A stretch of 64,000 nucleotides of DNA, taken from positions 4,557,501 through 4,621,500 of the forward strand of contig NZ_CP146100.1 in the NCBI RefSeq assembly GCF_037023755.1. The letters run 5' to 3'. Positions within the stretch are counted from its first letter, which is position 1. Each line of letters opens with the position of its first letter. The position numbers and the translations under genes are program-made. A model generated the notes under the pieces. The model saw only the letters and a list, made by a program, of their open reading frames with translations, was not told the DNA's origin and ran no database searches. This stretch comes from Saccharopolyspora sp. SCSIO 74807. Lineage in GTDB: Bacteria; Actinomycetota; Actinomycetes; Mycobacteriales; Pseudonocardiaceae. Positions 21,231 through 49,631 of the stretch are shown piece by piece.

Positions 21231-22109
21231 TCAGCGCAGCGGCTTGCGGCCCACGCCCGCCCAGATCGCGGCCTCTTCCGGCGCCGCGAGGTCCAGGTCC
21301 GGGGTGTAGTTCGGGCTGCGATCCTCCGGGTGCCACTCCGAGGTCCAGGTCATGCCCGGCGCCAGCATCTCGAAGTCGCCGAAGAACGACCGGATCTCCT
21401 CCTGCGAACGCCAGATCACCGGGCTGGTGGAGCGGTCGTACATCTTCTTGATGCCGACCAGCTTCTCGTCCATTTCCGGCAGCACGCCGTCATCGGTGAC
21501 CTGCGAGATCGCCAGGAAGGAACCGGGCGGCAGCAGCTCGCGGTAGCGGGCCATCACCTGCGGGGAGATGTCGGTGCCCTCGGGGCCGAGTTGCTGGACG
21601 TGCAGCACCGCGATCAGCAGCACCGCGATCGGCTCCTCCAGGTCCAGCACGCCGGTCTCGATGGCGCGCTGCCAGAGCTTGTCCGGGTTGCGGAAATCGG
21701 CGTTGATCACCGCGTGCCGGTCGGTGTCGCCGTCGGTCTCCAGCAGGACCTGCGAATGCGCGACGGCCACCGGCTCGTGGTCGACGTAGACGACCCGCGA
21801 TCCCGGCTCGACCTCGTCGGCCACCGAGTGCGTGTTGCCCATCGTGGGCACCCCGGAGCCGATGTCGATGAACTGGTGCACGCCCTGCGAGACCAGCCGC
21901 CGCACCGCGCGGTGCAGGAAGAGCCGGTTGTTGATGGCGATCGGGCGCAGCAACGGGTACTTCTCCAGGACGCTTTCCCCGAACGCGCGGTCGATCGCCC
22001 AGTTGGCGTCGCCGCCGAGGTAATAATCGTAGACCCGCGCGACGCTGGGCTTGCTCAAGTCCGCTTGCTGCGGGGGGAACGGGTCGTCGTCCACATCGCT
22101 CATTCGCAT
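21231..22109 (-). CDS. SAM-dependent methyltransferase, DUF574 (Methyltransf_19) family, copy 2
   Basis: A 292-residue protein, ATG 22109 with AAGGA six bases upstream. It has the family signature SVARVYDYYLGGDANWAIDR, the SAM-binding FIDIGSGVPTMGNTHSVAD, and VVYVDHEPVAVAHSQ. It is more typical of the family than copy 1 (16350-17264), which has an extra N-terminal tail. It lies downstream of the XRE regulator gene on the same strand, 105 bases apart. The GGAATTAATCC site in that gap resembles the operator pair of the WhiJ-like locus, suggesting common control. The methyl acceptor is unknown. Confidence 0.92.
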   Translation of the reverse strand: MRMSDVDDDPFPPQQADLSKPSVARVYDYYLGGDANWAIDRAFGESVLEKYPLLRPIAINNRLFLHRAVRRLVSQGVHQFIDIGSGVPTMGNTHSVADEVEPGSRVVYVDHEPVAVAHSQVLLETDGDTDRHAVINADFRNPDKLWQRAIETGVLDLEEPIAVLLIAVLHVQQLGPEGTDISPQVMARYRELLPPGSFLAISQVTDDGVLPEMDEKLVGIKKMYDRSTSPVIWRSQEEIRSFFGDFEMLAPGMTWTSEWHPEDRSPNYTPDLDLAAPEEAAIWAGVGRKPLR

Positions 22110-22185
22110 GGTCCTTCATTCACGACCGGGTGATCTTGGGACGCATAGTAGTCCTCCGGACGCCGGTTGTGACGGGCGCCCGGGC

Positions 22186-22196
22186 GGAATTAATCC
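22186..22196. promoter_or_regulatory. TTAATC-type site upstream of the DUF574 gene
   Basis: GGAATTAATCC is a near-palindrome and an AT-rich island between the XRE gene and the methyltransferase gene. It shares ATTAATC with the two GATTAATC palindromes at 23497-23521. Confidence 0.45.
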
Positions 22197-22214
22197 CAAC
22201 CGTGATGCTCCCGG

Positions 22215-23075
22215 TCAGAAGGACATCTTCGAGCGGAACTCCGCGGCCAGTCCCTGCAGGAACTCCACCGACTCGTTGACCTCGAGCGCGGCGCCGCGCA
22301 GCCGGTCCCAGGAGTCGACGAACAGCTCGAAGTCGCTCTCGTCGTCCAGGTAGATCCCGCCGGCGGCGTGCTCGATGAACACGAAGTCCTTGGTGGCGTC
22401 GGAGAAGCGCATCATCGTGAAGTCGTTCGGCACGAACGCCAGCCGCACGTCGAACGGCAGCACGTGGATGAACACCCGCGGATAGCGCTCGCCGAGCTCC
22501 AGCAGGTGCTCGACCTGGTCCAGCGCCACCGGCGGGTTCGGCCCGCCCGGGATCCGGCGGAACGCGGCCTCGCCCAGCACGAACCGGTAGTACGGCGGGC
22601 GGTCCAGGTCGAAGACCTGCTTGCGGTCCTGCCGGTTGCGCACCAGCGATGTCACGTCGGTGGCCCGGTCCTCGCTGAACTGCGTGAGCATGTAGTGCTC
22701 GGACTGCAGCGGACCGGGGATGCGCTCGCCGTGCCAGCTCAGGATCTCCCCGGCGGCCGGTTCGAGGTCGGTGAAGGTGCGGAACCAGTGCGGCACCGCC
22801 GAGCGGTAGCCGGACCACTGGCCGCGCTGGCCTGCGCTGCTGCGCGCCAGCTCCAGCATCACTTCGGCTTCGGTGTCGCTGGTCTGGAACGCTTCCAGCA
22901 TCGACTTGAGCTCGGCCTGCTTGACCGCGACGGTGCCGGACTCGATCTTGTTGACCTTGCCCTGGCGGCACCCGAGCAGCTCGGCGACCTCCTGCTGCGT
23001 CATGCTCGCAGCGATCCGGGCTCGCCGGATCTCGTTGCCGAGCTGTCTGCGCCGCGACGTCACCGTGCTCGGCAC
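22215..23075 (-). CDS. XRE helix-turn-helix regulator with DUF5753 domain (WhiJ-like)
   Basis: A 286-residue regulator. The GTG start at 23075 follows GGGGAG. The N-terminal XRE domain covers about residues 10-70 (RIAASMTQQEVAELLGCRQGKVNKIESG). The remaining 200 residues form the DUF5753 domain (LQSEHYMLTQF, then PPYYRFVLGEAAFRR), found in Streptomyces WhiJ-type regulators. Such proteins typically pair with a small DUF397 protein that relieves or modulates DNA binding; that partner is encoded at 23228-23464. They influence development and antibiotic production. The target here is probably the divergent region at 23496-23522. Confidence 0.92.
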   Translation of the reverse strand: MPSTVTSRRRQLGNEIRRARIAASMTQQEVAELLGCRQGKVNKIESGTVAVKQAELKSMLEAFQTSDTEAEVMLELARSSAGQRGQWSGYRSAVPHWFRTFTDLEPAAGEILSWHGERIPGPLQSEHYMLTQFSEDRATDVTSLVRNRQDRKQVFDLDRPPYYRFVLGEAAFRRIPGGPNPPVALDQVEHLLELGERYPRVFIHVLPFDVRLAFVPNDFTMMRFSDATKDFVFIEHAAGGIYLDDESDFELFVDSWDRLRGAALEVNESVEFLQGLAAEFRSKMSF

Positions 23076-23978: not shown

Positions 23979-24060
23979 CTCGCATCCGTCCGCGAGCCGT
24001 CCGGCCGCCGGGGGCATCGCATCCGGACGATTCGCCGACCGCTGATCTGTCCGGAAAGCT

Positions 24061-24112
24061 CAATCGACTGACCGGCGATGTCATGACCTAGATCACTCGT
24101 ACGACTTAGCGT
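24061..24112 (+). promoter_or_regulatory. AraC-type activator box and promoter of the solitary mce gene
   Basis: The box CAATCGACTGACCGGCGATG (24061-24080) continues into TCAT and is followed after 21 bases by TTAGCGT (24106-24112), a -10-like element. The same arrangement occurs at 26631-26681 before the acyl-CoA ligase gene. The -35 position has no consensus, which suits activator-dependent transcription. Confidence 0.6.
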
Positions 24113-24239
24113 TCTCGTCTGTCCGGCGTCGCGCCGTGCTCCACAAGGCGGACGACCGGTGCGGCCCTTGGCGCGGTGGCGTTCGCACGCCCGCTGCGAG
24201 GGCCGCGGTACGACGGGGTACGAGCTGACGGCGGTCCGG

Positions 24240-25520
24240 ATGAGCAACACGAGCACCCGCGCTACGGTGCGGCGGAGAATCCTGGGGTTAGCGCTGCTGC
24301 TGTGCGGGGCGCTGTTCATCGTCCTGACGGTGGCGACGTATCAGCGCGCGTTCACCTCCAGCACGGACGTGGTGTTGGAGGCGGCTTCGACCGGGAACCA
24401 GCTGTTGCCGGACTCGGACGTGAAGGTGCACGGCATGATCGTGGGCCGGGTGTCCGAAGTGGAGCCGACGCGCAACGGCTCGGCGGTGCACCTGGAGTTG
24501 GAGCCGGACAAGGCGAAGTTGTTGCCCGCCAACGTTTCGGCGCGGCTGCTGCCGCGGACGTTGTTCGGTGAGCGGTACGTGTCGCTGGACACGCCCGAGG
24601 ATCCGGCGGGCCGGTTGCAGGCGGGGGATGTGATCTCGCAGGACCGCACGCGGGCGTCGGTGGAGCTGGAGCAGGTCCTGTCGGACACGATGCCGGTGCT
24701 GGAGGCGATCCATCCGGCCGAGCTGGCGACGACGCTGAACTCGCTGAACCACGCGCTGGAGGGCCGGGGCCAGTCGATCGGCGACACGATTTCGCGGTTG
24801 AACTCCTACGTGTCCGAGTTGAATCCGTCGTTGCCGGATCTGCAGGCGAACCTGCGCGAGGTGGTCGGGGTCGCGGAGACCTACGAGCAGGCGGCGCCGG
24901 ACGTGCTGCAGGCGTTGGGCAACCTCTCGACCACGGCGCGGACGCTGGTGGATCAGCAGCAGAACCTGCGGACGCTGACCTCGCAGCTGACCACGACGTC
25001 GGGGGACGCGACGAAGTTCTTCGAAGCCAACGGCCAGAACCTGATCCGGTTCGGCGAGACCTCCCGGCCCACGCTGGACGTGCTGTCCAAGTACTCGCCG
25101 CAGTACCCGTGCCTGCTGCAGAGCGTCAGCGGGATCGTTCCGCGGGTCAACGAGGTCTTCGGCGCGGGCACCGACGAACCCGGTGCGCACATCAAGCTGG
25201 AAGTCGTGCCGAACCGCGGTGCGTACCAGCCGGGCGAGGACGAGCCGCAGTACTCCGACCAGCGCGGGCCGCGTTGCTACGACTATCCCGGAACCCGGCC
25301 GCAGTACCCGCCGGACGGCCCGATCGAGGACGGTTCCACGCCGCCCGCGGCAGGCGGGACGCCGGACTCCGGGCTCGGTCTGATCAACTCGCCGCAGGAG
25401 CGCAACGCCGTGTCGAGCACGCTGGCGCCGTCGATGGGCGTGCCCGCGCGCGAGGTTCCGCAATGGGGCTCGATGCTGGTCGGGCCGGTGTTGCGCGGTG
25501 CCGAGGTGGAATACCGCTGA
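24240..25520 (+). CDS. Solitary MCE-family protein (lipid-uptake type)
   Basis: A 426-residue MceA/C-like protein with an N-terminal membrane anchor (about residues 15-35) and an MCE beta-barrel domain (about 40-120; VKVHGMIVGRVSEVE is typical). A long helical needle-forming region follows (about 135-300), then a proline-rich acidic tail. MCE proteins form tubes that carry lipids or sterols across the envelope. Unlike the 45.7-54.7 kb operon, it has no YrbE or other mce partners. It carries a TTA leucine codon at 24288-24290. The AraC-type regulator downstream and the shared box suggest a link with the acyl-CoA ligase gene at 26718. Confidence 0.88.
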   Translation: MSNTSTRATVRRRILGLALLLCGALFIVLTVATYQRAFTSSTDVVLEAASTGNQLLPDSDVKVHGMIVGRVSEVEPTRNGSAVHLELEPDKAKLLPANVSARLLPRTLFGERYVSLDTPEDPAGRLQAGDVISQDRTRASVELEQVLSDTMPVLEAIHPAELATTLNSLNHALEGRGQSIGDTISRLNSYVSELNPSLPDLQANLREVVGVAETYEQAAPDVLQALGNLSTTARTLVDQQQNLRTLTSQLTTTSGDATKFFEANGQNLIRFGETSRPTLDVLSKYSPQYPCLLQSVSGIVPRVNEVFGAGTDEPGAHIKLEVVPNRGAYQPGEDEPQYSDQRGPRCYDYPGTRPQYPPDGPIEDGSTPPAAGGTPDSGLGLINSPQERNAVSSTLAPSMGVPAREVPQWGSMLVGPVLRGAEVEYR

Positions 25521-25535
25521 TCCGCGAGGTCCGGT

Positions 25536-26618
25536 TCACGACCGGCGGCGCGCGTAGGCCATCGGGGTGCTGCCGGTCCACCGCTTGAAGGCGTGGATGA
25601 AGCTGGCCGCTTCGGCGTAGCCGAGCCGGATCGCGATGTCGTCGACCGACAGCGTCCCGTCCCGCAGCATCCCTTCGGCCAGCGCCGAGCGGACTTCGTC
25701 GCGCACCGCCTGGAAATGCGTTCCCTCCGCGTGCAACCGGCGGTGCAACGTGCGGGCGGTGGTGTGCATTCTGCGGGCCACGTCCTCCATGCTCAGCCGG
25801 ACCCCGTCCGGTGCGAGCAGTTGTTCGCGGACGTGCTTGGCGAACCCGGCGCGCTCGCGGCGCTCGGCGAGCAGGTCGCGGCACTGCGCTTCGCACATCG
25901 CCAAGGTGTGCGCGTTGGCCTGCGGCAGCGGGTGGTCCAGCAGCGCCGGATCGAGCAGCACCACGTCGGCGGAGCTGCCGAACTGCGGGGCGGTGCCGAA
26001 AAGTTGCTCGTACTCCGCGACGTCGGCGGGCTCCGGCAGCGACAGCTGCACGCCGCGCAGCGGGATCGGCTGGTCCAGCAGCTCCCGGATGATCGTGTAG
26101 ATCGCCGAGAGGTCCCGCCCGAGCAGGAACTCGCGCACATCGGCGGGGATCGCTCCGGTGTCCAGCTCGACCCGCAGCGCGCCGTCGCGCATCCGGATGC
26201 GCGGGATGCAGAACGCGAAGCTCAGCTCCAGGTAGCGCAGCGCCACCGCGATGCCGTCCCGCACGGTCGGGCTGCTGATGAACGCGAACCCGAGGATGCC
26301 GTAGGCGGTCAGGTGGTACTGCAACCCCGCCCGCATCCCGAGGTCCGGGTCGTCCGGCAGGGCCGCGACCAGGTTGCGCACGATCCGCAGCTCCTGGTGC
26401 GCGTCCACGGACCCGTTCGGGTCCTCCAGCTCAACCTCGGTGAGCCCGGTGCCGCACAGCAGCGACTCCGGCGGCACCCCTTCGGCGGCGGCGAACCGGG
26501 TCAGCAGCTGGGCGCTGGTCGTGCTGCGCGGGAAGTCCCAGTCGCGCACGACCGGGTCCGGGATCGCGGGACGGGTGTTCTGCTCGGAGGGTTGCGCGGT
26601 GTCGCTTCGTTGCGGCAT
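25536..26618 (-). CDS. AraC family regulator (Arabinose_bd/OruR type)
   Basis: A 360-residue regulator; ATG 26618 is the likely start (a TTG at 26633 is also in frame). The first 200 residues form the Arabinose_bd (PF12625) sensory domain, with LTAYGILGFAFISSPTVRDG near residue 110. The C-terminal 100 residues hold the double helix-turn-helix (DVARRMHTTARTLHRRLHAEG, and DDIAIRLGYAEAASFIHAFKRWTG). This subgroup often controls lipid or amino-acid catabolism. The gene lies between the solitary mce gene and the acyl-CoA ligase, convergent with the first and divergent from the second. Both targets carry the same upstream box, so it probably activates them. Confidence 0.9.
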   Translation of the reverse strand: MPQRSDTAQPSEQNTRPAIPDPVVRDWDFPRSTTSAQLLTRFAAAEGVPPESLLCGTGLTEVELEDPNGSVDAHQELRIVRNLVAALPDDPDLGMRAGLQYHLTAYGILGFAFISSPTVRDGIAVALRYLELSFAFCIPRIRMRDGALRVELDTGAIPADVREFLLGRDLSAIYTIIRELLDQPIPLRGVQLSLPEPADVAEYEQLFGTAPQFGSSADVVLLDPALLDHPLPQANAHTLAMCEAQCRDLLAERRERAGFAKHVREQLLAPDGVRLSMEDVARRMHTTARTLHRRLHAEGTHFQAVRDEVRSALAEGMLRDGTLSVDDIAIRLGYAEAASFIHAFKRWTGSTPMAYARRRS

Positions 26619-26630
26619 GGCCGGAAGTAT

Positions 26631-26681
26631 CAATCACTTGACCGCCGGTGTCATAGCCCGCACGGCCGATCGGCTTAACGT
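26631..26681 (+). promoter_or_regulatory. AraC-type activator box and promoter of the acyl-CoA ligase gene
   Basis: CAATCACTTGACCGCCGGTG (26631-26650) plus TCAT matches the box at 24061 in the pattern CAATCNNYTGACCGNCGNTG. TTAACGT at 26675-26681 lies 20 bases after the box. The box starts 13 bases upstream of the araC gene start at 26618, so autoregulation is also possible. Confidence 0.6.
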
Positions 26682-26717
26682 GATCGGAACAGATCGGATG
26701 TGAGCGAGGAGGCGCCG

Positions 26718-28592
26718 ATGACGCCGGTGCAGGCCGAACGCGCGGAGATCGAGGCGGCGATCGCGGGCCGCACGGTGCCGGACCTGCTCGCCGACATGGC
26801 GCGCGATCGCCCGGACGAGCAGGCCTTCTGCTCCGAGTCGCAGACTTGGACGTGGTCGCAGGCGCACGGGCAGGTGCTCGGCGTGGCAGCGGCGCTGCGT
26901 TCGCTGGGGGTGGGCTCCGGTGACGTGGTGGCGCTGATGGCGAGCAACCGGCCGGAACACGTGCTGGCGGACCTGGGTGCTTCGGCTGCGGGCGCGACGA
27001 CCACGACGCTGTATTCCACGCTGGCGCCGGAGCAGATCCGGCACGTGCTGGTGGATTCCGGCGCGAAGCTCGCGGTCGTGGAGGGCGAGGACGCTTGGCG
27101 GCGGTGGGGCGCGGTGCTGGGCGAGCCTGCCGAGCTGGGTGAGTCGGCGGAGCGGGACGAGTCGGCGGAGCAGGGCGAGTCGGGGGAGCAGGGCGAATCG
27201 GCGGAGCTGGACGTGCTCGTCGCGCTCGACGTCCCCGGCGCACCGGCACCGGCGGGTTTCGGCGGCCGGGTGCTGGACTGGCAGGACTTCCTGGAACTCG
27301 GCGCGGAGCCCGAAGCACCTGGCGACCGGCCGGACCCGGGGGACACCGCGGTGCTGATCTACACCTCCGGCACGACCGGCCGCTCGAAGGGCGTCCGGCT
27401 CAGCCACCGCGCGCTGCTCTACGAAGTCGAGGCACTGGCCCGGGTGGCCGGATTGCCGGACCAGGTGGTGAGCCTGTCGTACCTGCCGCTGGCGCACGTG
27501 GCCGAGCGGGTGCTGTCGGTCTACCTGCCGCTGCGTTGCGGTGGGCGTACGCACTTCTGCGCCAGCGTCAAGGAACTGCCGCAGCGGCTCCCGCAAGTGC
27601 GCCCGACGATCTTCTTCGGCGTCCCGCAGGTCTGGGAGAAGCTGCGCGCGGGCATCGAGTCGAAGCTCGCCGAGCAGGGCGGATTGCGCGCTCGCCTCGG
27701 CCGCTGGGCGTTGCGCGCAGGAACCGCCGGTGCCGAACCGGACGCGACACGAGGCCGGAAGGCGTTGGCACGCCTGGCGGATCGCGCGGTGCTGCACCGC
27801 ATCCCGGCGGCGTTGGGGCTGGACCGGTGCGCGGTGCGCGCGGTCGGTGCGGCGCCGTTGCCGCCGGGACTGGAGCGGTTCTTCGCGGGAATCGGGCTCG
27901 GGTTGACCGGGGTTTACGGGCTCTCGGAGACCTGCGGCGCCGCGGTGATGCACCGGGCGGACGCCGACCGGTCCGGAACGGTCGGCTCGGCGATGCCGGG
28001 CGTGGAACTGGAACTGGCCGAGGACGGCGAGGTGCTGCTGCGCGGGCCGCTGTGCACGTCCGGCTACCGCAACCTGCCGGAGGCGACCGCCGATCTGTTC
28101 ACAGTGGACGGTTGGTTGCGCACCGGCGACCTCGGGCGACTCACCGCGGACGGCCAGCTCAAGATCACCGGCCGGAAGAAGGAGGTGATCGTCACCGCGG
28201 GCGGCAAGAACATCAGCCCGGTCGCGGTGGAGTCGCTGCTGGTGGAGCACCCGCTGGTGGGGCAAGCGATGGTGCACGGCGACGACCGCCCGCACCTGGT
28301 GGCGCTGCTGATGCCGGACCCGGACGAGCTGGCGCGCTGGGCCGGCGCCCGCGGGCTCGCCGCGGCAGGGCGCGAGCAGCTGCTGACCGATCCGCGGTTG
28401 CGCGCCGAGTTCGCCGGTGCCGTGCGGGCGGCGAACGCGAAGCTCGCCAGGGTGGAGCACGTCCGCTCCTGGGGCCTGGCCGCGGACGAGTGGACCGAGG
28501 AGGCCGGTGAGCTCACGCCGACCCGCAAGATCCGCCGCAAGGTGCTGACCGAGCACCACCGCGAGCAGCTGGACGGGCTCTACCAGGCGTGA
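26718..28592 (+). CDS. Long-chain acyl-CoA synthetase (AMP-binding, FadD15-like)
   Basis: A 624-residue AMP-forming ligase that activates fatty acids to acyl-CoA. ATG 26718 follows GAGGAGG; GTG 26700 is less likely. The motifs are YTSGTTGRSKGV near residue 215, YGLSETCG near 400, GWLRTGDLGRLTADGQLKITGRKKE near 470, and a terminal RRKVL-type lysine region. Mycobacterial FadD15 and similar actinobacterial enzymes have the same length and layout. Residues 141-164 are an unusual acidic insertion made of four 6-residue copies. The shared upstream box with the solitary mce gene suggests that imported lipid is activated here. Confidence 0.92.
   Translation: MTPVQAERAEIEAAIAGRTVPDLLADMARDRPDEQAFCSESQTWTWSQAHGQVLGVAAALRSLGVGSGDVVALMASNRPEHVLADLGASAAGATTTTLYSTLAPEQIRHVLVDSGAKLAVVEGEDAWRRWGAVLGEPAELGESAERDESAEQGESGEQGESAELDVLVALDVPGAPAPAGFGGRVLDWQDFLELGAEPEAPGDRPDPGDTAVLIYTSGTTGRSKGVRLSHRALLYEVEALARVAGLPDQVVSLSYLPLAHVAERVLSVYLPLRCGGRTHFCASVKELPQRLPQVRPTIFFGVPQVWEKLRAGIESKLAEQGGLRARLGRWALRAGTAGAEPDATRGRKALARLADRAVLHRIPAALGLDRCAVRAVGAAPLPPGLERFFAGIGLGLTGVYGLSETCGAAVMHRADADRSGTVGSAMPGVELELAEDGEVLLRGPLCTSGYRNLPEATADLFTVDGWLRTGDLGRLTADGQLKITGRKKEVIVTAGGKNISPVAVESLLVEHPLVGQAMVHGDDRPHLVALLMPDPDELARWAGARGLAAAGREQLLTDPRLRAEFAGAVRAANAKLARVEHVRSWGLAADEWTEEAGELTPTRKIRRKVLTEHHREQLDGLYQA
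27137..27208 (+). repeat. 18-bp coding minisatellite inside the acyl-CoA synthetase gene
   Basis: Four units of 18 bases start at 27137, 27155, 27173 and 27191, consensus GGGCGAGTCGGCGGAGCA. They encode the acidic hexad (G/D)ESAE(Q/R) repeated, in the variable loop between the first subdomains of the enzyme. Unit number could vary between strains without a frameshift. Confidence 0.85.
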
Positions 28593-28832
28593 CGCTCCGC
28601 GCGTGACCGGCTGACGATGCGACGGCGCCGCGCGGCGCCGCACCGGAAGTCGCCGCACCGCCTCGCCGCAACCGCCGGAAGATCGAACGCGCCCCGAGCC
28701 GGCGCTCCGGAATCGGCGCGCCCGAGGCAGCGCCTCTGCACCAGCTCCTCCGGTCCCGTGCCGCGGACCCGGCGCCTACCGGCACCCGCGGCCCAGCCCG
28801 GCCCCGCACCGAGCACAACTAGATTCGGCGGC

Positions 28833-31145
28833 ATGAGTTCCTGGCGGTCCACGACCTCGCACTGGGGTGCCTACCGCGCCCGCGTCGACCCGGACGGCGC
28901 GCTGGAGATCGGCCCGCACCCGGCCGATCCGGCCCCGTCCGAGCTGCTCGGCAACGTCGCGACCGCGGTGCACCACGCCACCAGGGTCGAGCGCCCGGCG
29001 ATCCGGCGCGGTTGGCTCGAAGGCGGCGCCGGTCCCTCGGATCGACGCGGTCGCGAGGAGTTCGTCTCCGTGGGCTGGGACACCGCGCTCGACCTCGTCG
29101 CGGGCGAGCTGCGCCGGGTCCGCGAACGGCACGGCAACGAGGCGATCTACGGCGGCTCCTACGGCTGGTCGAGCGCCGGGCGCTTCCACCACGCGCAGTC
29201 CCAGCTGCACCGCTTCCTGAACACCATCGGCGGCTACACCGCGTCCCGGAACACCTACAGCTTCGGGACTTCATCGGTGCTGCTGCCGCGCCTGGTCGGA
29301 GACGCGGGCACGTACCTGCACCGCGGCGAGAGCTGGCAGACCATCCGCGAGCACACCGACCTCGTCGTCGCATTCGGCGGTATGCCGCCGAAGAACGTGC
29401 AGATCAGCCCGGGCGGTGTCACCGAGCACAGCACGTCGCGGACGCTGGCCGATTGGGATTCCCGCGGCGTGCAGCTGGTGGTGGTCAGCCCGCTGCGCAG
29501 CGACCTGCCGGACTCGGCGCGGACCGAGTGGCTGCCGGTGCGCCCGGCCACCGACGTCGCGCTCATGCTCGGCATCGCGCACACGCTGCTCACCGAGGGG
29601 TTGCACGACGAGGAGTTCCTCGCCCGCTGCACGGTCGGCTTCGACCGGTTCGCCGACTACCTGCGCGGCGCGGACGGTCCGGAGCGGGACGCGGAGTGGG
29701 CCGCCGGGCTGTGCGACGTGCCCGCCGACGAGATTCGGGCGCTGGCCCGCCGGATGGCCGCAGGGCGCACCTTGGTGACGGTGAGCTGGTCGCTGCAGCG
29801 CATCGAGCACGGCGAACAGCCGCTGCACGCGGGCCTGGCGCTGGCGGCGATGCTCGGTGGAATCGGACTGCCGGGCGGCGGATTCGGCCACGGCTACGGC
29901 TCCAGCGGCGACGTCGGCGACCCCGGCCCGCTGCTGCCGCTGCCGACGTTGGCGCAGGGCACCAACCCGGTCGAGACGTTCATCCCGGTGGCGCGGATCG
30001 CCGACATGCTGCTGCACCCCGGCGAGACCTACGACTACGACGGGCAGCGGCTGACCTACCCGGACATCCGCGCGGTGTACTGGGCGGGCGGCAACCCGTT
30101 CCACCACCACCAGGACCTCAACCGGCTGCGGCGGGCGTTCCAGCGGCCGGACACGGTGATCGTGCACGAACCGCACTGGACGGCCACCGCGCGGCACGCC
30201 GACGTCGTGTTGCCGGTGACGAGCACGCTGGAACGCGCGGACATCGGCGCTGGCAGGCGGGACACCAGGCTGATCGCCATGCACCGGGTGCTGGATCCGG
30301 TCGGGCGGGCCCGCGACGACCACGACATCTTCGCCGCGCTGGCCGAGCGGCTCGGTACCGGTGCGGCGTTCACCGAAGGCCGCACGTCGCAGGAATGGCT
30401 CGAACACCTCTATTCGGACTGGCGGGACCGGATGCTGGAGCAGGGCCACGAGGCGCCGGCGTTCGCCGAGTTCTGGGCGGCGGGCGAACACGTGCTGCCG
30501 CAACGCGACCGGCCCACCCCGCTGGCCGAGTTCCGCGCGGACCCGTCAGCGCATCCGCTGGCCACGCCCAGCGGCCGGATCGAACTGCGCTCCGCGACCA
30601 TCGCCGGATTCGGCCTGCCGGACGTGCCCGGGCACCCGGTGTGGCGCGAACCGGCAGACGGTCTGCACGACGCGCGCCTGCCGCTGCGGCTGATCGCCCA
30701 CCAGCCGCGTACCCGGCTGCACGGGCAAGGGGACGTCGGCGCGCTCAGCCGCTCGTCGAAGATCCGGGGCCGCGAGCCGCTGCGCCTGCACCCGGCGGAC
30801 GCGCGCGGCCGCGGCATCGCCGACGGCGACGTGGTGCGCGTGTTCAACGACCGCGGCGCTTGCCTGGCCGGAGCACTGCTGACCGAGGACGTGCTGCCCG
30901 GCGTCGCGGTGCTGGCGACCGGGGCCTGGTACGACCCCGTGGACCACCCGGGGCAGCCCGGCGGCTCCTGGTGCGTGCACGGCAATCCGAACGTGCTCAC
31001 CCCCGACCGGCCGACCTCGGCGCTGTCGCAGGGCTGCGCCGGGCAGCAGACCCGCGTGCAGGTGGAGCCGTTCGAGGAAGAACCACCGCCGCTGAACCAC
31101 GACCGGCCACCCCGGATCGCCGCGGAAACGCCCGAGAGCGGCTGA
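28833..31145 (+). CDS. bisC: Molybdopterin oxidoreductase, biotin sulfoxide/DMSO reductase type
   Basis: A 770-residue enzyme of the DMSO reductase family, ATG 28833. The opening SHWGAYRARV and LLGNVATAVHH segment, the absence of N-terminal cluster cysteines, and the GSYGWSSAGRFHHAQSQLHR block with the molybdenum-ligand serine place it with BisC/TorZ single-subunit reductases, not nitrate reductase or formate dehydrogenase. No signal peptide is seen, so a cytoplasmic site is likely, as for BisC, where reduction of biotin or methionine sulfoxides protects against oxidation. The bis-MGD cofactor genes are not in this window. The electron donor is unknown. Confidence 0.88.
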   Translation: MSSWRSTTSHWGAYRARVDPDGALEIGPHPADPAPSELLGNVATAVHHATRVERPAIRRGWLEGGAGPSDRRGREEFVSVGWDTALDLVAGELRRVRERHGNEAIYGGSYGWSSAGRFHHAQSQLHRFLNTIGGYTASRNTYSFGTSSVLLPRLVGDAGTYLHRGESWQTIREHTDLVVAFGGMPPKNVQISPGGVTEHSTSRTLADWDSRGVQLVVVSPLRSDLPDSARTEWLPVRPATDVALMLGIAHTLLTEGLHDEEFLARCTVGFDRFADYLRGADGPERDAEWAAGLCDVPADEIRALARRMAAGRTLVTVSWSLQRIEHGEQPLHAGLALAAMLGGIGLPGGGFGHGYGSSGDVGDPGPLLPLPTLAQGTNPVETFIPVARIADMLLHPGETYDYDGQRLTYPDIRAVYWAGGNPFHHHQDLNRLRRAFQRPDTVIVHEPHWTATARHADVVLPVTSTLERADIGAGRRDTRLIAMHRVLDPVGRARDDHDIFAALAERLGTGAAFTEGRTSQEWLEHLYSDWRDRMLEQGHEAPAFAEFWAAGEHVLPQRDRPTPLAEFRADPSAHPLATPSGRIELRSATIAGFGLPDVPGHPVWREPADGLHDARLPLRLIAHQPRTRLHGQGDVGALSRSSKIRGREPLRLHPADARGRGIADGDVVRVFNDRGACLAGALLTEDVLPGVAVLATGAWYDPVDHPGQPGGSWCVHGNPNVLTPDRPTSALSQGCAGQQTRVQVEPFEEEPPPLNHDRPPRIAAETPESG

Positions 31146-31223: not shown

Positions 31224-31481
31224 GACAAGCCGCGGCGAAGATATCGGTGCCGATCGCGCGCATCGGCATCACACCGGGTGATCATGGCTGGCCGCGGCGC
31301 GGGCGGAGCCCGGCGAAACCGGAAATCGAACTGCGATGCGACGTCATTCCGGTCACCGGTTGATCACAGGACACTGAGAAGAACCTGAGTTCGTTCGTCG
31401 ATTCCGGCGGCCGCTTCGTCGAGCCGTGTGGCGCCTCCAACACGACGGCCAATGCTCCGCCGAGCCCGCAACGGCGGCGAC

Positions 31482-31487
31482 TATTCT
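31482..31487 (+). promoter_or_regulatory. TATTCT -10 element of a probable leaderless arabinosyltransferase mRNA
   Basis: TATTCT ends six bases before GTG 31494 and fits the TANNNT rule for leaderless actinobacterial transcripts, which begin at or next to the start codon. No ribosome site precedes the GTG. An upstream start at 31428 or 31452 would be incompatible with this promoter. Confidence 0.5.
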
Positions 31488-31493
31488 CCGGGC

Positions 31494-34400
31494 GTGCTCA
31501 ATGCGGAGAAAGATGACACCGATCAGGCGACGGCGGATTCCGCGCCGCCCTCGGAGGCCGCCGCCGAGAGCCGCCCGCGCCGGCCGCTGCGGCGGCTGAA
31601 GCTGCTGGCGACGCTGTTCGGCCTGCTCGGCACCGTGCTGTCGCTGGCCGTGCCGTTCCTGCCGGTGACCCACGAGATCACCACGCTGCGCTGGCCCACC
31701 GCCAGCGGCACCACGCCGGTGTCGGCTCCGCTGGTCACGTTCTCCCCGGTCTGGCTGGACGCCCAGATCCCGTGCTCGAGCGCGCAGGACCTCGACGCGC
31801 GCACCAACGGTCCGGCGACGCTGCTGAGCACCAACCCGCCGGACTCCGACTACGGCAGGCTCACCGGGCTGACGCTGCAGGTCGACAACGGCCTGATCAC
31901 GCTGCTGACCCAGGGCAAGCAGATCAACACGGTGCCGATCCCGGCGGGCGGGTGCGCGCTGGACCTGCATTCCGACGCCGTCGGGTTCAAAGCCCGCGTC
32001 GGGGACAACGTGCTCACCAACATCGCCGGTGATCACCGTCCACAGTTGACCGGGATCTACTCGGACCTCAACGCGCGCACCGACCAGGTCGACGGGCTCT
32101 CGTTCGAGGCCCAGGTGGACAACCGCTTCGAGAGCTCGCCGACCGCGCTGAAGCTCGCGGTGATCGCGCTGGCGCTGGTGGCCTTCGTCGCTTCGGTGGT
32201 GTGCCTGCGCAAGCTGGACACCCGCGCCGGGCGGCGACCACCGCGCTGGGTGCAGCCGGGATGGTGGAAACCGACGCTGCCGGACGTCGCGGTGATCGGC
32301 TCGCTGCTGATCTGGTGGCTGATCGGGGCGATGAGCTCCGACGACGGCTACACGATGGCGATCGCACGAGCGCGTGAGAGCGCGGGCTACATCAGCAACT
32401 ACTACCGCTGGTTCGCCAACCCGGAAGCGCCGTGGGGCTGGTTCTACGAGGTCTACGCGCTGTGGGTGAAGGTCTCCACGGCCATTCCGTGGATGCGGCT
32501 GCCCGCGCTGCTGATGGCGCTGGTGAGCTGGATGCTGATCAGCCGCGAAGTGCTGCCCCGGCTCGGCCAGCAGGTCCGCCGCAGCCAGGCCGCCGGTTGG
32601 GCCGCGGCCGCGGTGTTCCTCGCGTTCTGGCTGCCGTACAACAACGGCCTGCGCTCCGAGCCGGTCATCGTGGTGTTCTCGCTGGCCGCGCTCTGCGCGG
32701 TCGAACGCGCGGTGGCCACCAGCCGGTTGATGCCCGCCGCGCTCGGGCTGGTCGTGGCAGCGCTCGCGGTCGGTGCCGGGCCGCACGGGATCGTCGCCGT
32801 GCTGCCGTTCGTGGCCGCGCTGAAACCGCTGCTGAAGCTGCTGGGCAGGCGGGTGAAGGAGTTCGGCTGGCTACCGGTGCTGGCGCCGATCTCGGCGGCC
32901 GGGTTCGTGGTGCTGAACCTGCTGGTGTGGGACCAGACCTGGCAGACGATCTCCGAGGCGACCTCGCTGAAGATCGACCTCGGGCCGAGCGAGAAGTGGT
33001 ACCAGGAGCTGAACCGCTACAACATGCTGTTCAGCCCGATCCCGGACGGTTCGCTGACCCGCCGGTTCCCGGTGCTGCTGGTGATCCTCTGCCTGGTGAC
33101 CTGCGCGGTGGTGCTGCTGCGGCGCAACCGGATCCGCGGTGCCGCGCTCGGGCCGAGCCGCCGCCTGCTGGCGGTGGCGGGCATGTCGTTCGTGGCGCTG
33201 GCGATGACGCAGACCAAGCACACCCACCACTTCGGGATCTTCGCGGCCGTCGGTGGCGCGCTGGCCGCGCTGACCGCGTTGGCGACGAGCACCACCGTGT
33301 TGCGCTCGCGGCGCAACCGGGCGGCGTTCTTCTCCGGGCTCATGGTGATCTGCGCGTTCTCGGCCACCGGGCCGAACGCCTGGTGGTACGTGTCCGGGTG
33401 GGGAGTGCGCTGGTCCGAGGAAACGCCGAAAATCGGCGGTTACGAGGCCAGCACGCTGCTGCTTGCGGTGGCGCTGATCGCGGCGATCATCGCGTTCGTC
33501 GAGCACGTGCGGGCGGACAAGCGGCTCGCGCCGCCGGGCGGGGTGGAGCACCGCAGCCGCGCGCTGCGCCTGGGTACCGCGCCGTTGTCGCTGTTGTGCG
33601 CGTTGCTGATCCTCAGCGAGCTGGCCGCGTTCGGCGCGGCGGTCGAAAAGCGCGCCGGTGGCTACAGCCTCGGCGGGGACAACATCAACGCGATGACCGG
33701 CGGCAGCTGCGGGCTGTCCGACTACGTCTACGCGGAGACCAACCCGCAGGCCGGGATGCTCAAGGTCGCCGACAAGCAGCCGGCGAAGGCGGCTCCGGCG
33801 GTCGATCCGGACGTGCCGGTGCCGTCGAACCGGCTGGAGGGCGAGGAATCGCCCGAGGACTACCTGAACGCGAAGCTCACCGGCTTCAACCGCTCCGGCC
33901 TGCCGCCCGGCAACGGCACCACCACCGAAGAACCGGACTGGAAGCCGCCGTACCAGTTCGGCGGGGACAACGCTCCGGTGTGGGGCAGCTACACCCAGCG
34001 CGGCACCGGCGAACTGCGCACCCAGTGGTACGACGTGCCGCAGCGCGCGGCCAGCGGTGAAGTGCCGATCGTGCTGGCGATGGCCGGCATCGAGGGCGGG
34101 GCCAACTCGCTGGCGGTGGAGTTCGGCAAGGACAGCCCGGAGGGCTTCCAGATCACCGACCGTCGCTACCTGCTGCAGCCCGGCGGGCCGAACTGGCGGG
34201 ACAAGCGGCTGGTCGTGGACGGCAAGGCCGAGGGCACCACGAAGATGCGCATCGTCGCCGTGGACCAGTCGGTGTCCCCGCGCGGCTGGCAGGCGGTCAG
34301 CGCACCCCGCGCGCCGCAGCTGACGAACATGACCGACGTGGTCGGCGACAGCCCGACGTTCGTGGACTGGTCGGCCGCGTTCGTGCACCCCTGCCTGCAA

Positions 34401-34787
34401 CTGTCCGGTCTGAACAACGGCATCGCCGAGATGCCGCGGTTCCGCGTCGCGGGCGGTGCGGGCGTGCGCGCCATCGGCCAGGGCTGGTCGTCGCCGGACA
34501 AGGGCGGGCCGTTCGGCTGGATGAACGTCACCGCGAGCATGCGGGAACTGCCGACGTACATGAAGGACGACCTCAACCGCGATTGGGGCACGCTGTACGC
34601 GGTCGACCCGTACGAACCGAGCGCACTGCCCGCGGAGGCGGCGATGCGCACGCACCAGGAAACCCATTGGGGCACCTGGACGCCCGGCCCGCTGCCGCGG
34701 ACCGTCTCGCTGCCCGGCGACGTGCCCAGTTCCGACGACCGCAACGACATCCGGCCGCTGGACGCGGGCACCGGCAGCGACAACTAG
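31494..34787 (+). CDS. Arabinosyltransferase, Emb type (GT53 family)
   Basis: A 1097-residue GT-C glycosyltransferase of the EmbA/B/C type, which uses decaprenyl-phosphoryl-arabinose to build arabinan of arabinogalactan or lipoarabinomannan. An N-terminal membrane helix (about residues 38-60) is followed by a periplasmic carbohydrate-binding-like domain. Then comes the acidic catalytic motif SSDDGYTM near 290 and about 12 more helices. A C-terminal soluble domain (about 790-1090) has the arabinan-binding features seen in EmbC. Only one emb gene is present, as in genera with a single Emb protein. GTG 31494 is chosen over 31428 because of the -10 element at 31482. Confidence 0.93.
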   Translation: MLNAEKDDTDQATADSAPPSEAAAESRPRRPLRRLKLLATLFGLLGTVLSLAVPFLPVTHEITTLRWPTASGTTPVSAPLVTFSPVWLDAQIPCSSAQDLDARTNGPATLLSTNPPDSDYGRLTGLTLQVDNGLITLLTQGKQINTVPIPAGGCALDLHSDAVGFKARVGDNVLTNIAGDHRPQLTGIYSDLNARTDQVDGLSFEAQVDNRFESSPTALKLAVIALALVAFVASVVCLRKLDTRAGRRPPRWVQPGWWKPTLPDVAVIGSLLIWWLIGAMSSDDGYTMAIARARESAGYISNYYRWFANPEAPWGWFYEVYALWVKVSTAIPWMRLPALLMALVSWMLISREVLPRLGQQVRRSQAAGWAAAAVFLAFWLPYNNGLRSEPVIVVFSLAALCAVERAVATSRLMPAALGLVVAALAVGAGPHGIVAVLPFVAALKPLLKLLGRRVKEFGWLPVLAPISAAGFVVLNLLVWDQTWQTISEATSLKIDLGPSEKWYQELNRYNMLFSPIPDGSLTRRFPVLLVILCLVTCAVVLLRRNRIRGAALGPSRRLLAVAGMSFVALAMTQTKHTHHFGIFAAVGGALAALTALATSTTVLRSRRNRAAFFSGLMVICAFSATGPNAWWYVSGWGVRWSEETPKIGGYEASTLLLAVALIAAIIAFVEHVRADKRLAPPGGVEHRSRALRLGTAPLSLLCALLILSELAAFGAAVEKRAGGYSLGGDNINAMTGGSCGLSDYVYAETNPQAGMLKVADKQPAKAAPAVDPDVPVPSNRLEGEESPEDYLNAKLTGFNRSGLPPGNGTTTEEPDWKPPYQFGGDNAPVWGSYTQRGTGELRTQWYDVPQRAASGEVPIVLAMAGIEGGANSLAVEFGKDSPEGFQITDRRYLLQPGGPNWRDKRLVVDGKAEGTTKMRIVAVDQSVSPRGWQAVSAPRAPQLTNMTDVVGDSPTFVDWSAAFVHPCLQLSGLNNGIAEMPRFRVAGGAGVRAIGQGWSSPDKGGPFGWMNVTASMRELPTYMKDDLNRDWGTLYAVDPYEPSALPAEAAMRTHQETHWGTWTPGPLPRTVSLPGDVPSSDDRNDIRPLDAGTGSDN

Positions 34788-46562: not shown

Positions 46563-47407
46563 TGGCCGCTCCGCAACCGCGCAGCGCCCAACCGGTCCGC
46601 AAGTTCGTGGACGTGCTGGCCGGGTTCGGGATGCAGGCCACGTTCTACCTCCGGGCGATCGTCGCGCTGCCGCGCGCGCTGCTGCACTACCGCAAGCACG
46701 TGGCCAGGCTGGTCGCGGAGATCAGCTTCGGGGCGGCCTCGCTGTTCGCCGGTGGCGGCACCATCGGCGTGATCTTCGCGATGTCCTTCGTCGCCAGCAC
46801 GCAGGTCGGCCTGGAGGGCTACCGCGGGCTCGACCTGATCGGGCTGACCCCCATGTCCGGGCTGATGTCGGCCATGGTCAACACGCGCGAGCTGGCGCCG
46901 CTGGTGGCCAGCATCGCGCTGGCGGCCAAGGTGGGCACCGGGTTCACCGCGCAGCTCGGCGCGATGCGCATCGCCGACGAGGTGGACGCGTTGGAGTCGA
47001 TGGCGGTGCGGTCGTTGCCGTTCCTGGTCAGCACCCGGATGGCCGCGGCGTTCATCTCGGTGGTGCCGCTGTACCTGGTGGGCCTGTTCGCGTCCTACAT
47101 CGCCACGCGGGTGGCGGTGGTGCACCTGCAGGGCCAGTCGGGCGGCACCTACGACTTCTACTTCCAATTGCTGCTGAGCCCGTCCGATGTGGGTTTGTCG
47201 CTGCTGAAAGCCGTCGTGTTCGCCATGGTCGTGACGCTGGTGCACTGCTTCTACGGCTACTACGCCACCGGCGGGCCGGAAGGCGTTGGGCGCGCGGCGG
47301 GGCGGGCGTTGCGCACCAGCATCGTGGCGATCACGTTCACCGACATGCTGCTGACCTTGCTTTTCTGGGGGCTGAGCCCGAGCCTGCCCGCGCTGGGGGT
47401 GCAGTGA
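46562..47407 (+). CDS. yrbEB: MlaE/YrbE family ABC permease B of the mce operon
   Basis: A 281-residue membrane protein starting in TGATG, so translation is coupled to yrbEA. The MlaE pattern appears as ADEVDALESMAVRSLPFLVSTR, with ELAPLV and GTGFTAQLGAMRI before it. The pairing of two YrbE genes ahead of six mce genes is the classic mycobacterial and actinobacterial arrangement. The ATPase that powers the system, MceG, is not encoded anywhere in the window. Confidence 0.93.
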   Translation: MAAPQPRSAQPVRKFVDVLAGFGMQATFYLRAIVALPRALLHYRKHVARLVAEISFGAASLFAGGGTIGVIFAMSFVASTQVGLEGYRGLDLIGLTPMSGLMSAMVNTRELAPLVASIALAAKVGTGFTAQLGAMRIADEVDALESMAVRSLPFLVSTRMAAAFISVVPLYLVGLFASYIATRVAVVHLQGQSGGTYDFYFQLLLSPSDVGLSLLKAVVFAMVVTLVHCFYGYYATGGPEGVGRAAGRALRTSIVAITFTDMLLTLLFWGLSPSLPALGVQ

Positions 47408-48630
47408 TGGCGGACCTCATGCGCGGCGGGGTGAGCAGGCGGTCGCTGGCGGTGCGCGGCGCACTGGCCGTGGTCGTGGTGCTCGGGGCGGTGGTGCTGT
47501 CCGCATCCGGCGGTGCCGAGCTGTTCAACGGCGCCCCCACGGTGACCTCGACCGTGCCCGCCGAGGCCGGTCCGGTGCGGGCGAACTCCGCGGTGCGCTA
47601 CCGCGGGGTGGTGGTCGGCGAACTGTCCGAAGTGGAGGCCGGGACTCGCGGTTCGCGCCTCACGCTCCGCATGGAACCGGCAGAACTGGATTCCGTGCCC
47701 GCAGGCGTGCGGTTGCGGATCCTGCCGAAAACGCTGTTCGGCGATCAATACGTCGATCTGGCGGGAGATTCGTCGACCGGACAGGGCAGTTTGCGACCGG
47801 GGTCGGTAGTGGCGGCCGACGACACCCGCGGCACGGTGCAGATATACCGGGCCTACACCAGGATGTACGGGCTGTTGACCGCGCTGCGGCCCGCGGAGTT
47901 GCAGACCGCGTTGACCACCATGGCCGACGTGTTGCGAGGCCGCGGTGCGGAGATCGGCCGGACGATCGACACGCTGCACGACCTCTCCGGACGCTACGAT
48001 CCGCAGCGCACGATCGGGAACATGTCCGAAATCGCCGGGCTGAGCAAGCAGCTCGCCGACGCGTCGCCGGACCTGCTGGCCACTTTGGACGATGCCGTGA
48101 CGTTGTCGCGCACGATCGTGGACGAGCGCCAGGACTTGGCGAACCTGCTCAGCGCCGGGACCGCGCTCACCGCGGAGTCGCAGCGCTTCCTCGACGACAA
48201 CGCCGCCAAGGCCATCGAGGTCGTGCACACCATGGAGCCCTCCTCCGAGGTACTGGGCGCGAACGCGGACCAGCTCACCGCGACGCTGCACAACCTGCGG
48301 GATTTCACGGGCAACGCCAGCCGTACCTTCAAAGACGACCGCTTCCACATCCGCGCGCCGGTCACGCTCGAAGACCCGCAGCCGTACGGCCCGCAGGACT
48401 GCCCGCGCTATCCCGGCCTGGACGGGCCGAACTGCGCGCAGCCCACGCCACCGGCTCCGCGGTTCGGCGGCACCGTCGGCCCGATCGGCACTGAGCAGGA
48501 GAAGCGGGCGCTGGCCGATCTGGTACCGCCACCTGCGACGGCTGGACCGTCCACACCGGACATCGACACCGATGTGGCGGGCCTGCTGTTCGGGCCGGTC
48601 GTGCGCGGAACCCGGGTGGTGGCGCCGTGA
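47407..48630 (+). CDS. mceA: MceA protein of the mce operon
   Basis: A 407-residue protein, ATG 47407 in a TGATG overlap with yrbEB (GTG 47404 possible). N-terminal anchor (about residues 12-35), MCE domain (about 40-120; VRYRGVVVGELSEVEAGTRG), then the long helical region and a proline-rich tail with three cysteines. It is one ring subunit of the heterohexameric tube, in the first position. The order matches MceA of mycobacteria. Overlaps mceB by four bases. Confidence 0.92.
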   Translation: MADLMRGGVSRRSLAVRGALAVVVVLGAVVLSASGGAELFNGAPTVTSTVPAEAGPVRANSAVRYRGVVVGELSEVEAGTRGSRLTLRMEPAELDSVPAGVRLRILPKTLFGDQYVDLAGDSSTGQGSLRPGSVVAADDTRGTVQIYRAYTRMYGLLTALRPAELQTALTTMADVLRGRGAEIGRTIDTLHDLSGRYDPQRTIGNMSEIAGLSKQLADASPDLLATLDDAVTLSRTIVDERQDLANLLSAGTALTAESQRFLDDNAAKAIEVVHTMEPSSEVLGANADQLTATLHNLRDFTGNASRTFKDDRFHIRAPVTLEDPQPYGPQDCPRYPGLDGPNCAQPTPPAPRFGGTVGPIGTEQEKRALADLVPPPATAGPSTPDIDTDVAGLLFGPVVRGTRVVAP

Positions 48631-49631
48631 ACATCGCCGGTCCCGCAGTGAAGTTCACCGTGTTCGTCGTCGTTTCCGTGCTGGCTGCGGTGCTCGTGGT
48701 GAACACGCTCAACCATCCGCTCGAAGGCGGCACGCGCACCTACCGGGCGGTGTTCACCGACGCCCAGGGCGTGCAGGAGGGCAACGAGATCCGCATCGCC
48801 GGGGTGCGCGCCGGGAAGGTCACCGACGTGCGGCTGCGCGATGCCCGGGCGCTGGTGACCTTCGACGTGCTCGACGACCAGCCGTTGCCCGCCACGTCGA
48901 GCGCCGTGATCCGCTACGCCGACCTGCTCGGCGGCCGGTACATCGCGCTCGATCCGGGTGCGGGTGGCGGCGAACTGCGGGAGGGCAGCACGATTCCGAG
49001 CTCGCGCACCCGGCCCGCGCTGGAGCTGACCTCGTTGCTCAACGGCTTCAAGCCGCTGTTCGATTCCATCGACCCCGGGCAGGCGAACCAGCTGGCGCAC
49101 GAGCTGGTGGCGGTGTTCCAGGGCGAGTCGGGCACCTTGACGTCCCTGCTGCAGCGGGTGATCTCGGTGACTTCCGGGCTGGTCGAGCGCGACCAGGTCA
49201 TCGGGCAGTTGCTGGGCAATCTCAACACGGTGCTCGCCACGACCAGCGAACATCGCGCGGACCTTGAGCAACTCATCGTCCGGTTAGGACAGTTGAGTTC
49301 CGCGGTGGCCCAAGACCGGGGACAGATCGCCGAGGCCCTGGACGCCGGCGGCGCGCTGGCGAACTCGGTGGACGGATCGTTGCAGCAGATCACTCCGAAC
49401 CTGACCCGCGATGTGGACGCGCTGCGGCAGATGACGAGCGGGTGGGTGGCGAACGAGCAGCGCTTCGACGCCGCCGTGCAGGGACTTCCCGAACTGGTCA
49501 CGAAGCTGAACCGGACAATGGATTACGGCACCTGGGTCAACATCTACGTCTGCAACCTGCGGTTGAGCGTCGGTGGTGCGCGCGTCGACCTCGGTGCGGC
49601 GCCGCTGCCGCATTCGGAGGTGTGCCGATGA
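48627..49631 (+). CDS. mceB: MceB protein of the mce operon (carries a TTA codon)
   Basis: A 334-residue protein, GTG 48627. Anchor at about residues 8-28, MCE domain with EGNEIRIAGVRAGKVTDVRL. The helical region follows, then a terminal YVCNLRLSVGGARVD block typical of MceB. A TTA leucine codon lies at 49284-49286 (IVRLGQ), which is rare in this GC-rich genome. In Streptomyces such codons make translation depend on the bldA tRNA. The operon order and overlaps make the assignment secure. Confidence 0.92.
   Translation: MNIAGPAVKFTVFVVVSVLAAVLVVNTLNHPLEGGTRTYRAVFTDAQGVQEGNEIRIAGVRAGKVTDVRLRDARALVTFDVLDDQPLPATSSAVIRYADLLGGRYIALDPGAGGGELREGSTIPSSRTRPALELTSLLNGFKPLFDSIDPGQANQLAHELVAVFQGESGTLTSLLQRVISVTSGLVERDQVIGQLLGNLNTVLATTSEHRADLEQLIVRLGQLSSAVAQDRGQIAEALDAGGALANSVDGSLQQITPNLTRDVDALRQMTSGWVANEQRFDAAVQGLPELVTKLNRTMDYGTWVNIYVCNLRLSVGGARVDLGAAPLPHSEVCR

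Follow-up and report, generated by a model that had tools for sequence, protein, structure and literature searches.

The question raised by this locus is why a solitary mce gene and a gene for an acyl-CoA ligase, separated by the gene of an AraC-family regulator, should share a promoter element. The locus lies in the window, by which we mean the whole 64,000-nucleotide stretch of Saccharopolyspora sp. SCSIO 74807 that was analysed (contig NZ_CP146100.1, positions 4,557,501 to 4,621,500). A preliminary description of this DNA had proposed an AraC-controlled module in which a lone MCE protein delivers a lipid and the ligase activates it. Comparison with related genomes leads us to another reading, to which we assign a probability of roughly 70%: the AraC protein would run a regulon of three promoters, and the orphan MceA encoded at one of them would be swapped into an Mce lipid importer, co-regulated with enzymes of oxidation and of coenzyme A (CoA) activation.

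An operator conserved at three promoters

Exact copies of the box, CAATCNNYTGACCGNCGNTG followed by TCAT, stand at 24061-24084 and 26631-26654, and each is followed, after 21 and 20 bases, by a TTARCGT heptamer, just as the preliminary description had reported. We regard the heptamers, TTAGCGT at 24106-24112 and TTAACGT at 26675-26681 (both on the plus strand), as putative -10 elements of the mce and ligase promoters. What that description overlooked is an upstream half-site: both boxes are part of a longer operator of 37 bp, TGTCCGGAAAGCTCAATCGACTGACCGGCGATGTCAT at 24048-24084 (operator 1) and TGGCCGGAAGTATCAATCACTTGACCGCCGGTGTCAT at 26618-26654 (operator 2), each on the plus strand and without mismatch to the 37-bp pattern. 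The operator consists of two direct half-sites, TGNCCG-N5-RTCA, whose starts are 21 bp, or about two helical turns, apart (24048 and 24069 in operator 1, 26618 and 26639 in operator 2); CTCA replaces RTCA in the first half-site of operator 1, so that TGNCCG-N5-NTCA covers both of its half-sites. Also overlooked was that operator 2 begins at the araC start codon, its first base, 26618, being the partner of the codon's A. As described, araC is flanked by the mce and ligase genes, but these are not the only plus-strand genes nearby, a reductase gene at 28830 being another.

The two operators are identical at 28 of 37 bases. When the two 200-bp upstream regions were shuffled with dinucleotide content kept, 8 of 2000 pairs gave a match as good as the 24-mer; for the 37-bp match the count was 0 of 2000, although among 3954 random pairs of real 200-bp window pieces 4 did as well. 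Such counts leave some room for coincidence at mce, or for the box there being a dead copy of the promoter on the araC side. The isolated pair of box matches was therefore dropped as the main argument, the 24-mer alone not being strong against shuffles, and the decisive evidence for the operator is its conservation across the genus.

In a scan that allowed up to three mismatches to the 37-bp pattern, the mce-side site (0-1 mismatch) and the ligase-side site (0 mismatches) were found in all six Saccharopolyspora genomes, and the reversed pattern gave 0 matches. Orthologous loci that keep the genes and lack the box, which the preliminary description had held would speak against a shared operator, were sought and none was found in these six. 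The gene order reductase-ligase-araC-mce is retained in Saccharopolyspora sp. HNM0986 (L034) and NFXS83 (L035). Alignments of four species show 29 of 37 invariant operator columns at mce against 121 of 352 outside the operator, and 30 of 37 against 114 of 243 at the ligase; in both promoters the most conserved 37-column window overlaps the operator. Against this conservation, a chance or dead mce box appears extremely improbable.

The same scan recovered a third site, at 2 mismatches in four of the six genomes and remote from the araC locus. It lies directly upstream of a gene for a Baeyer-Villiger-type flavin monooxygenase (BVMO), which is followed by a GMC oxidoreductase gene whose product scores 580.7 bits with the NCBIfam cholesterol oxidase model, under its cut-off of 850. 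The BVMO-GMC operon is also present in the window genome and its conspecific, where the monooxygenase is 73% identical, and its promoter there carries a site with 2 mismatches to a 36-bp version of the pattern (L198:8713, equal to G000:C1:4176712, G000 being the window genome; same count in the conspecific). With inspected promoters included, all three sites are thus present in six of six genomes, and the TGNCCG starts are 21 bp apart at every one of them. At the third site 30 of 37 operator columns are invariant in the four aligned species, against 81 of 225 outside it. The scope first proposed for the module therefore holds for mce and the ligase and has to be widened by a distant third target.

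The putative -10 elements differ in how they are kept. At mce the position is conserved in the four-species alignment and the letters differ among species (CTACTCT, for example), TAACGTGATCG is conserved at the ligase in all four aligned species, and at a similar distance the BVMO promoter has TAACGTGATC in three of four species and TAGCGTGATC in the window genome.

The search of the genome for further boxes that had been suggested at the outset yielded, across 6.69 Mb and with up to 3 mismatches to the 24-mer, the two exact window boxes and one extra place with 3 mismatches. Against the longer operator pattern, seven places in the genome have 2 mismatches. One of them (G000:C1:2197007-2197042, L175:5008-5043, minus strand, scored on the 36-bp version, with 4 mismatches in other species) lies in the gap that precedes the ABC ATPase gene of the complete mce cluster in which the orphan MceA has its paralogue, 3.2-3.3 kb upstream of that cluster's MceA gene, in a region conserved in six genomes. 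Because seven such places exist, we neither accept nor dismiss a fourth operator at L175:5043. Five of the other six (L182, L183 and L200-L202, wide loci) showed no module gene by tblastn; the remaining place, 1818203, fell outside that set.

The regulator and its site beyond the genus

The regulator, encoded on the minus strand at 25536-26618, combines an Arabinose_bd domain (PF12625; 155.2 bits, cut-off 27.6) with an HTH_18 domain (66.6 bits) and is the sole PF12625 match in the genome. Its AlphaFold2 (AF2) model, built on a 30-sequence alignment, has a predicted local distance difference test (pLDDT) score of 85.9; its best fold matches are CdpR (5chh) and the ligand domain of VirS (8rcw), and the ligand part aligns with 8rcw at a template modelling (TM) score of 0.80 by target length. 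In a phmmer comparison the protein matches CdpR 5chh at 6.3e-26 and VirS 8rcx at only 5e-9, and strict VirS orthology is unsupported by so weak a match. The protein is a CdpR/VirS-like regulator, probably with a lipid as ligand. Across 80 homologues the mean identity to it is 0.61 in the helix-turn-helix part and 0.45 in the ligand part.

The comparison of named araC loci, at 15 specified operator positions, covered 2 from the genus and 78 from outside it, 80 in all. With at most 2 of the 15 mismatched, the operator was found upstream of araC in 47 of the 80 loci, whereas dinucleotide shuffles gave it in 0 of 1600 cases and random pieces cut from these loci in 2 of 1410. The random-piece matches can be accounted for by 24 further sites of equal quality elsewhere in these loci: 2 at the genus mce genes, 9 just upstream of BVMO genes, 9 just upstream of GMC genes, 3 upstream of a second araC gene and 1 unassigned.

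Many loci with no site at araC have the operator at the BVMO or GMC gene instead. Nine Amycolatopsis loci (L066, L072, L074-L077, L079, L083 and L084) have an extra gene between araC and the BVMO gene, and an exact operator just upstream of the latter. Nine loci from Nocardia (L088, L101, L103, L104, L106, L107, L109, L111 and L112) have no BVMO gene opposite araC; instead, the GMC gene following araC is preceded by an exact operator, and at the araC start the second half-site is degraded, with 2-4 mismatches. Counting the araC, BVMO and GMC promoters together, 62 of the 78 non-genus loci carry the operator within 2 mismatches. A BVMO homologue lies upstream of araC on the opposite strand in 61 of the 78, and 39 combine this arrangement with an operator at araC. 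The Pseudomonas fluvialis locus (L089), with the order araC-BVMO-lipase-short-chain dehydrogenase, resembles the mymA operon in its arrangement.

The pattern alone leads to the same genes. Scanned with at most one mismatch through 249 family genomes, it matched in 84 (the reversed pattern gave 2 matches in one genome), and a BVMO gene lay in the 3-kb stretch by the site in 26 of the 30 non-genus loci fetched from the 106 matches listed; the four without one were all one-mismatch matches. In the sequences compared, the operator accompanies homologues of the window AraC across genera and as far as Pseudomonas, and BVMO or GMC genes are its usual predicted target in other genera.

The binder of the operator is likely to be the adjacent AraC, as the preliminary description had supposed, because it is the only AraC of PF12625 type in the genome and because the same operator recurs at or near its homologues elsewhere. 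Some other regulator might bind the three sites, with araC lying between two of them by chance; other helix-turn-helix regulators do exist, among them the XRE-type gene at 22215-23075, and binding by AraC is itself read from comparison. That the operator travels with homologues of this AraC makes such a coincidence very unlikely, and so does its absence where they are absent: of the 36 genomes common to both searches (G000-G035), 16 have a strong AraC homologue (more than 200 bits, our own threshold), and exact operators were present in 9 of these and in 0 of the other 20 (p 1.2e-4).

The half-site layout, too, is that of AraC kin. SphR of Pseudomonas aeruginosa recognises two direct repeats of TGNCCSNNRNNSNCC with 6-8 bp between them (PMC3900636), elsewhere described as a 15-bp repeat present twice around a 7-bp spacer (PMC5150637); a CdpR site is RGWYNNNWNCGGCCA (PMC8151288); and VqsM, taken by its authors to bind as a monomer, has the footprint TGATCTTTTCGGACG (PMC4176358), whose reverse complement fits GNCCG-N5-ATCA. 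As far as these accounts go, the half-site type is common to all three regulators and the window operator, and CdpR 5chh provides the best fold for the window AraC, but their targets differ, including ceramidase and sphingosine genes and quorum sensing.

Control by AraC is therefore well supported by comparison, and its direction is suggested by the geometry. The operator stands just upstream of the -10 element, with the downstream half-site abutting the expected -35 position, which suits an activator. Autorepression of araC is probable because the upstream half-site of 26618-26654 begins at the araC start codon, and this overlap suits such a role. We infer that AraC binds the operator, activates through it and limits its own expression.

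A close parallel in regulatory logic involves the mymA operon, which, like the window module, includes an acyl-CoA ligase (FadD13). In Mycobacterium tuberculosis this BVMO operon lies beside the gene of the AraC-type regulator VirS (PMC13234193), and on the evidence of that account both systems tie such a regulator, alike in its ligand part (8rcw), to a BVMO. The window system differs in the weak similarity of the regulators and in having an orphan MceA as a target; in the genus, moreover, the gene opposite araC is the ligase and the BVMO operon lies elsewhere, so the divergent arrangement of virS and mymA, which 61 of the 78 loci outside the genus share, does not occur there. APR1 of Acinetobacter venetianus, also of AraC type, binds the hydrophobic ligand n-C32, represses itself without ligand and regulates the monooxygenase gene almA (PMC11784139). 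AlmA, unlike the BVMO, is a long-chain alkane monooxygenase, and the account of APR1-almA, as available, has no Mce part.

The orphan MceA and its cluster paralogue

The mce gene at 24240-25520 (plus strand, an ATG start being assumed) encodes a protein of 426 residues with MlaD and Mce4_CUP1 domains, whose best solved-structure match is chain A of 8fed, which we take to be the Mce1 transporter. Over residues 3-379 it is 87% identical to the first Mce protein, MceA, of a cluster at G000:C1:2200346, in which an ABC ATPase and two MlaE permeases precede MceA and six genes have MlaD domains. Of the 26 MlaD-domain matches in the genome, 24 form four groups of six and the other two stand singly. 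At the three genus loci tested, the 1.5-kb flanks of the orphan gene contain no match to yrbE or mceB. A family search gave matches in 56 of 80 genomes, and 30 loci were fetched, 3 of them from the genus; the best matches at all 27 loci beyond the genus adjoin yrbE and mceB, and the operator is absent there (4-6 mismatches at best).

The orphan and cluster genes have an uneven history. Over residues 72-287 or so, the two are 90-100% identical in DNA within a genome, and 79-100% identical at third positions (five genomes windowed); like compared with like between species gives 74-93% over the same part (four comparisons). From residue 288 the within-genome identity falls at once to 62-68%, and a sixth genome, G060, shows the same jump at that residue in its difference counts. 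In a tree of the middle part, the orphan groups with its own genome's cluster copy in G003, G004 and G000/G060, and the orphans of G001 and G002 nest within the MceA group of those two genomes; in a tree of the C-terminal part, all orphans of the six genomes form one clade. Residues 72-287 contain 140 sites that, in every one of the four lineages, link the orphan to the MceA of its own genome, against a mean of 26.3 and a maximum of 101 in 23 mismatched pairings used as control, and residues 288-426 contain only 2. Sites fixed between the paralogues number 0 in the middle part and 25 in residues 288-426. The pattern is that of recurrent gene conversion, confined to the MCE ring and helical part of MceA, while both ends stay distinct.

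The preliminary description took the lone MCE protein to deliver lipid by itself, for which we find no support. As the paralogue of an MceA from a complete ABC-YrbE-Mce cluster, the orphan more likely joins a complete transporter. The gene is encoded singly, as one would expect if its product worked alone, as a homo-oligomer or lipid carrier, and passed its lipid to the ligase. Repeated conversion that keeps the ring and needle like those of the cluster MceA suggests, however, that the same partners must be fitted; in what is available of PMC10517005, the authors were unable to model Mce1A as a homohexamer, and the M. smegmatis counterpart functions within Mce1. A protein acting alone is accordingly unlikely.

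That counterpart, MSMEG_6540 (oMce1A), is a single-gene paralogue of Mce1A, 80-84% identical and different mainly at the C-terminus, which replaces Mce1A in Mce1 (PMC10517005, PMC9882608); isolated extra Mce1A copies in mycobacteria had been noted before (PMC1810536). The window orphan resembles oMce1A in being encoded by itself while a complete cluster of its own genome holds the paralogous MceA. An AraC operator, a co-regulated BVMO and gene conversion find no mention in the available parts of the two oMce1A papers. Given paralogy, gene conversion and this precedent, we infer that the orphan probably takes the place of the housekeeping MceA within a complete Mce importer; subunit replacement is the limiting step of the whole reading.

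Another view is that the orphan is a redundant duplicate, with conversion as passive homogenisation, end differences as drift and induction as a means of raising MceA dosage. Conversion between similar copies happens anyway, and its tracts naturally end where sequences already differ. What such a view accommodates poorly is that the orphan C-termini form one clade in six genomes, that 25 sites are fixed between the paralogues there and none in the middle, and that the operator of the mce promoter is conserved in the same number of genomes; we consider it rather unlikely.

The second single gene, at G000:C1:6060574-6061689 (L181), encodes an MceA-like protein 60% identical to the orphan, and nothing in its 14-kb locus comes within 5 mismatches of the operator; the operator is thus not a general mark of lone mce genes. 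The window itself holds another six-gene mce cluster, at 47404-53953, whose first Mce is 32% identical to the orphan.

A proposed pathway and its setting

The third partner in the window, at 26718-28592 on the plus strand (alternative start GTG at 26700), is an AMP-binding acyl-CoA ligase (Pfam AMP-binding, 2.1e-71) resembling FadD11, its NCBIfam FadD11 score of 390 bits being under the cut-off of 950. We propose that a hydrophobic ligand binds AraC, which on the 37-bp operator would activate the orphan mceA, araC/ligase and distant BVMO-GMC promoters and, at 26618-26654, limit its own expression. The orphan MceA would then enter the resident ABC-YrbE-Mce importer and alter its entry, or portal, end; conversion would keep its ring and needle like those of the resident MceA, so that it still fits, with N-terminus and portal differing. 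The induced cell would import a hydrophobic compound of alcohol or ketone type, which the GMC enzyme might oxidise; the BVMO could turn the ketone into an ester and, after hydrolysis, the ligase could activate the acid with CoA. The substrate and the order of these steps are conjecture.

In evolutionary terms, a catabolic AraC that elsewhere serves BVMO or GMC genes may have captured a duplicated MceA, giving an inducible exchange of one subunit by which the portal is refitted when a given lipid is present, conversion keeping ring and needle interchangeable and leaving membrane end and portal paralogue-specific. To this fuller account we would give about an even chance.

Several findings weigh against our interpretation. 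In 16 of the 78 loci from outside the genus, none of the araC, BVMO and GMC promoters carries the operator within 2 mismatches, and 7 of the 16 AraC-bearing family genomes have no exact one. Once the window genus is left out, exact operators occur in 4 of 11 genomes with a strong AraC homologue and in 0 of 20 without (p 0.01); if one mismatch is also tolerated, the counts become 5 of 11 and 4 of 20 (p 0.14). Blind scanning failed to pick up the window genome's BVMO site, which was seen only on inspecting that promoter, and no hydrolase for the BVMO ester was found among the four third-site genes tested in one species (BVMO, GMC, ADC-like and TENA-like). One mismatched species pairing reached 101 shared sites in the converted region, as would be expected of close species. 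For the orphan MceA, AF2 gave a poor model (pLDDT 43.5), and the needle/portal boundary is taken from sequence alignment and the published domain layout.

Much of this rests on known elements: the operator type, the kin of the regulator and the idea of an orphan MceA. The preliminary description knew of no such system; its parts and the regulator-BVMO logic have described relatives in VirS-mymA, SphR, CdpR and oMce1A. The coupling of operator, regulator and orphan MceA, together with the conversion pattern, appears to be new; within the parts of the open-licence PMC literature available, no description was found of it, nor of AraC control or gene conversion of any orphan mce gene. The regulator's DNA site is, by its distribution, old and widespread, and its use on a spare transporter subunit looks specific to the genus.

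These findings bear on how Mce importers select their lipid. The genus seems to keep two versions of MceA, one of them made on demand under a lipid-type regulator, and gene conversion marks which parts must fit the machine and which are free to differ, which provides a ready system for testing if substrate choice depends on the portal end of MceA. Through the operator, moreover, a single readable DNA site is tied to a large AraC-BVMO/GMC family that ranges from actinobacteria to gammaproteobacteria and is mostly uncharacterised.

Among the neighbouring genes, a BisC/TorA-type molybdopterin S/N-oxide reductase gene comes immediately after the ligase gene in the same orientation (28830-31142) and is present in L034 and L035 too, and an EmbC-type arabinosyltransferase with three Pfam domains follows at 31428-34784. 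On the other side, an S-adenosyl methyltransferase gene (Methyltransf_19) adjoins the XRE/DUF5753 regulator gene within 21231-23075, and the latter is retained beside the module in L034 and L035.

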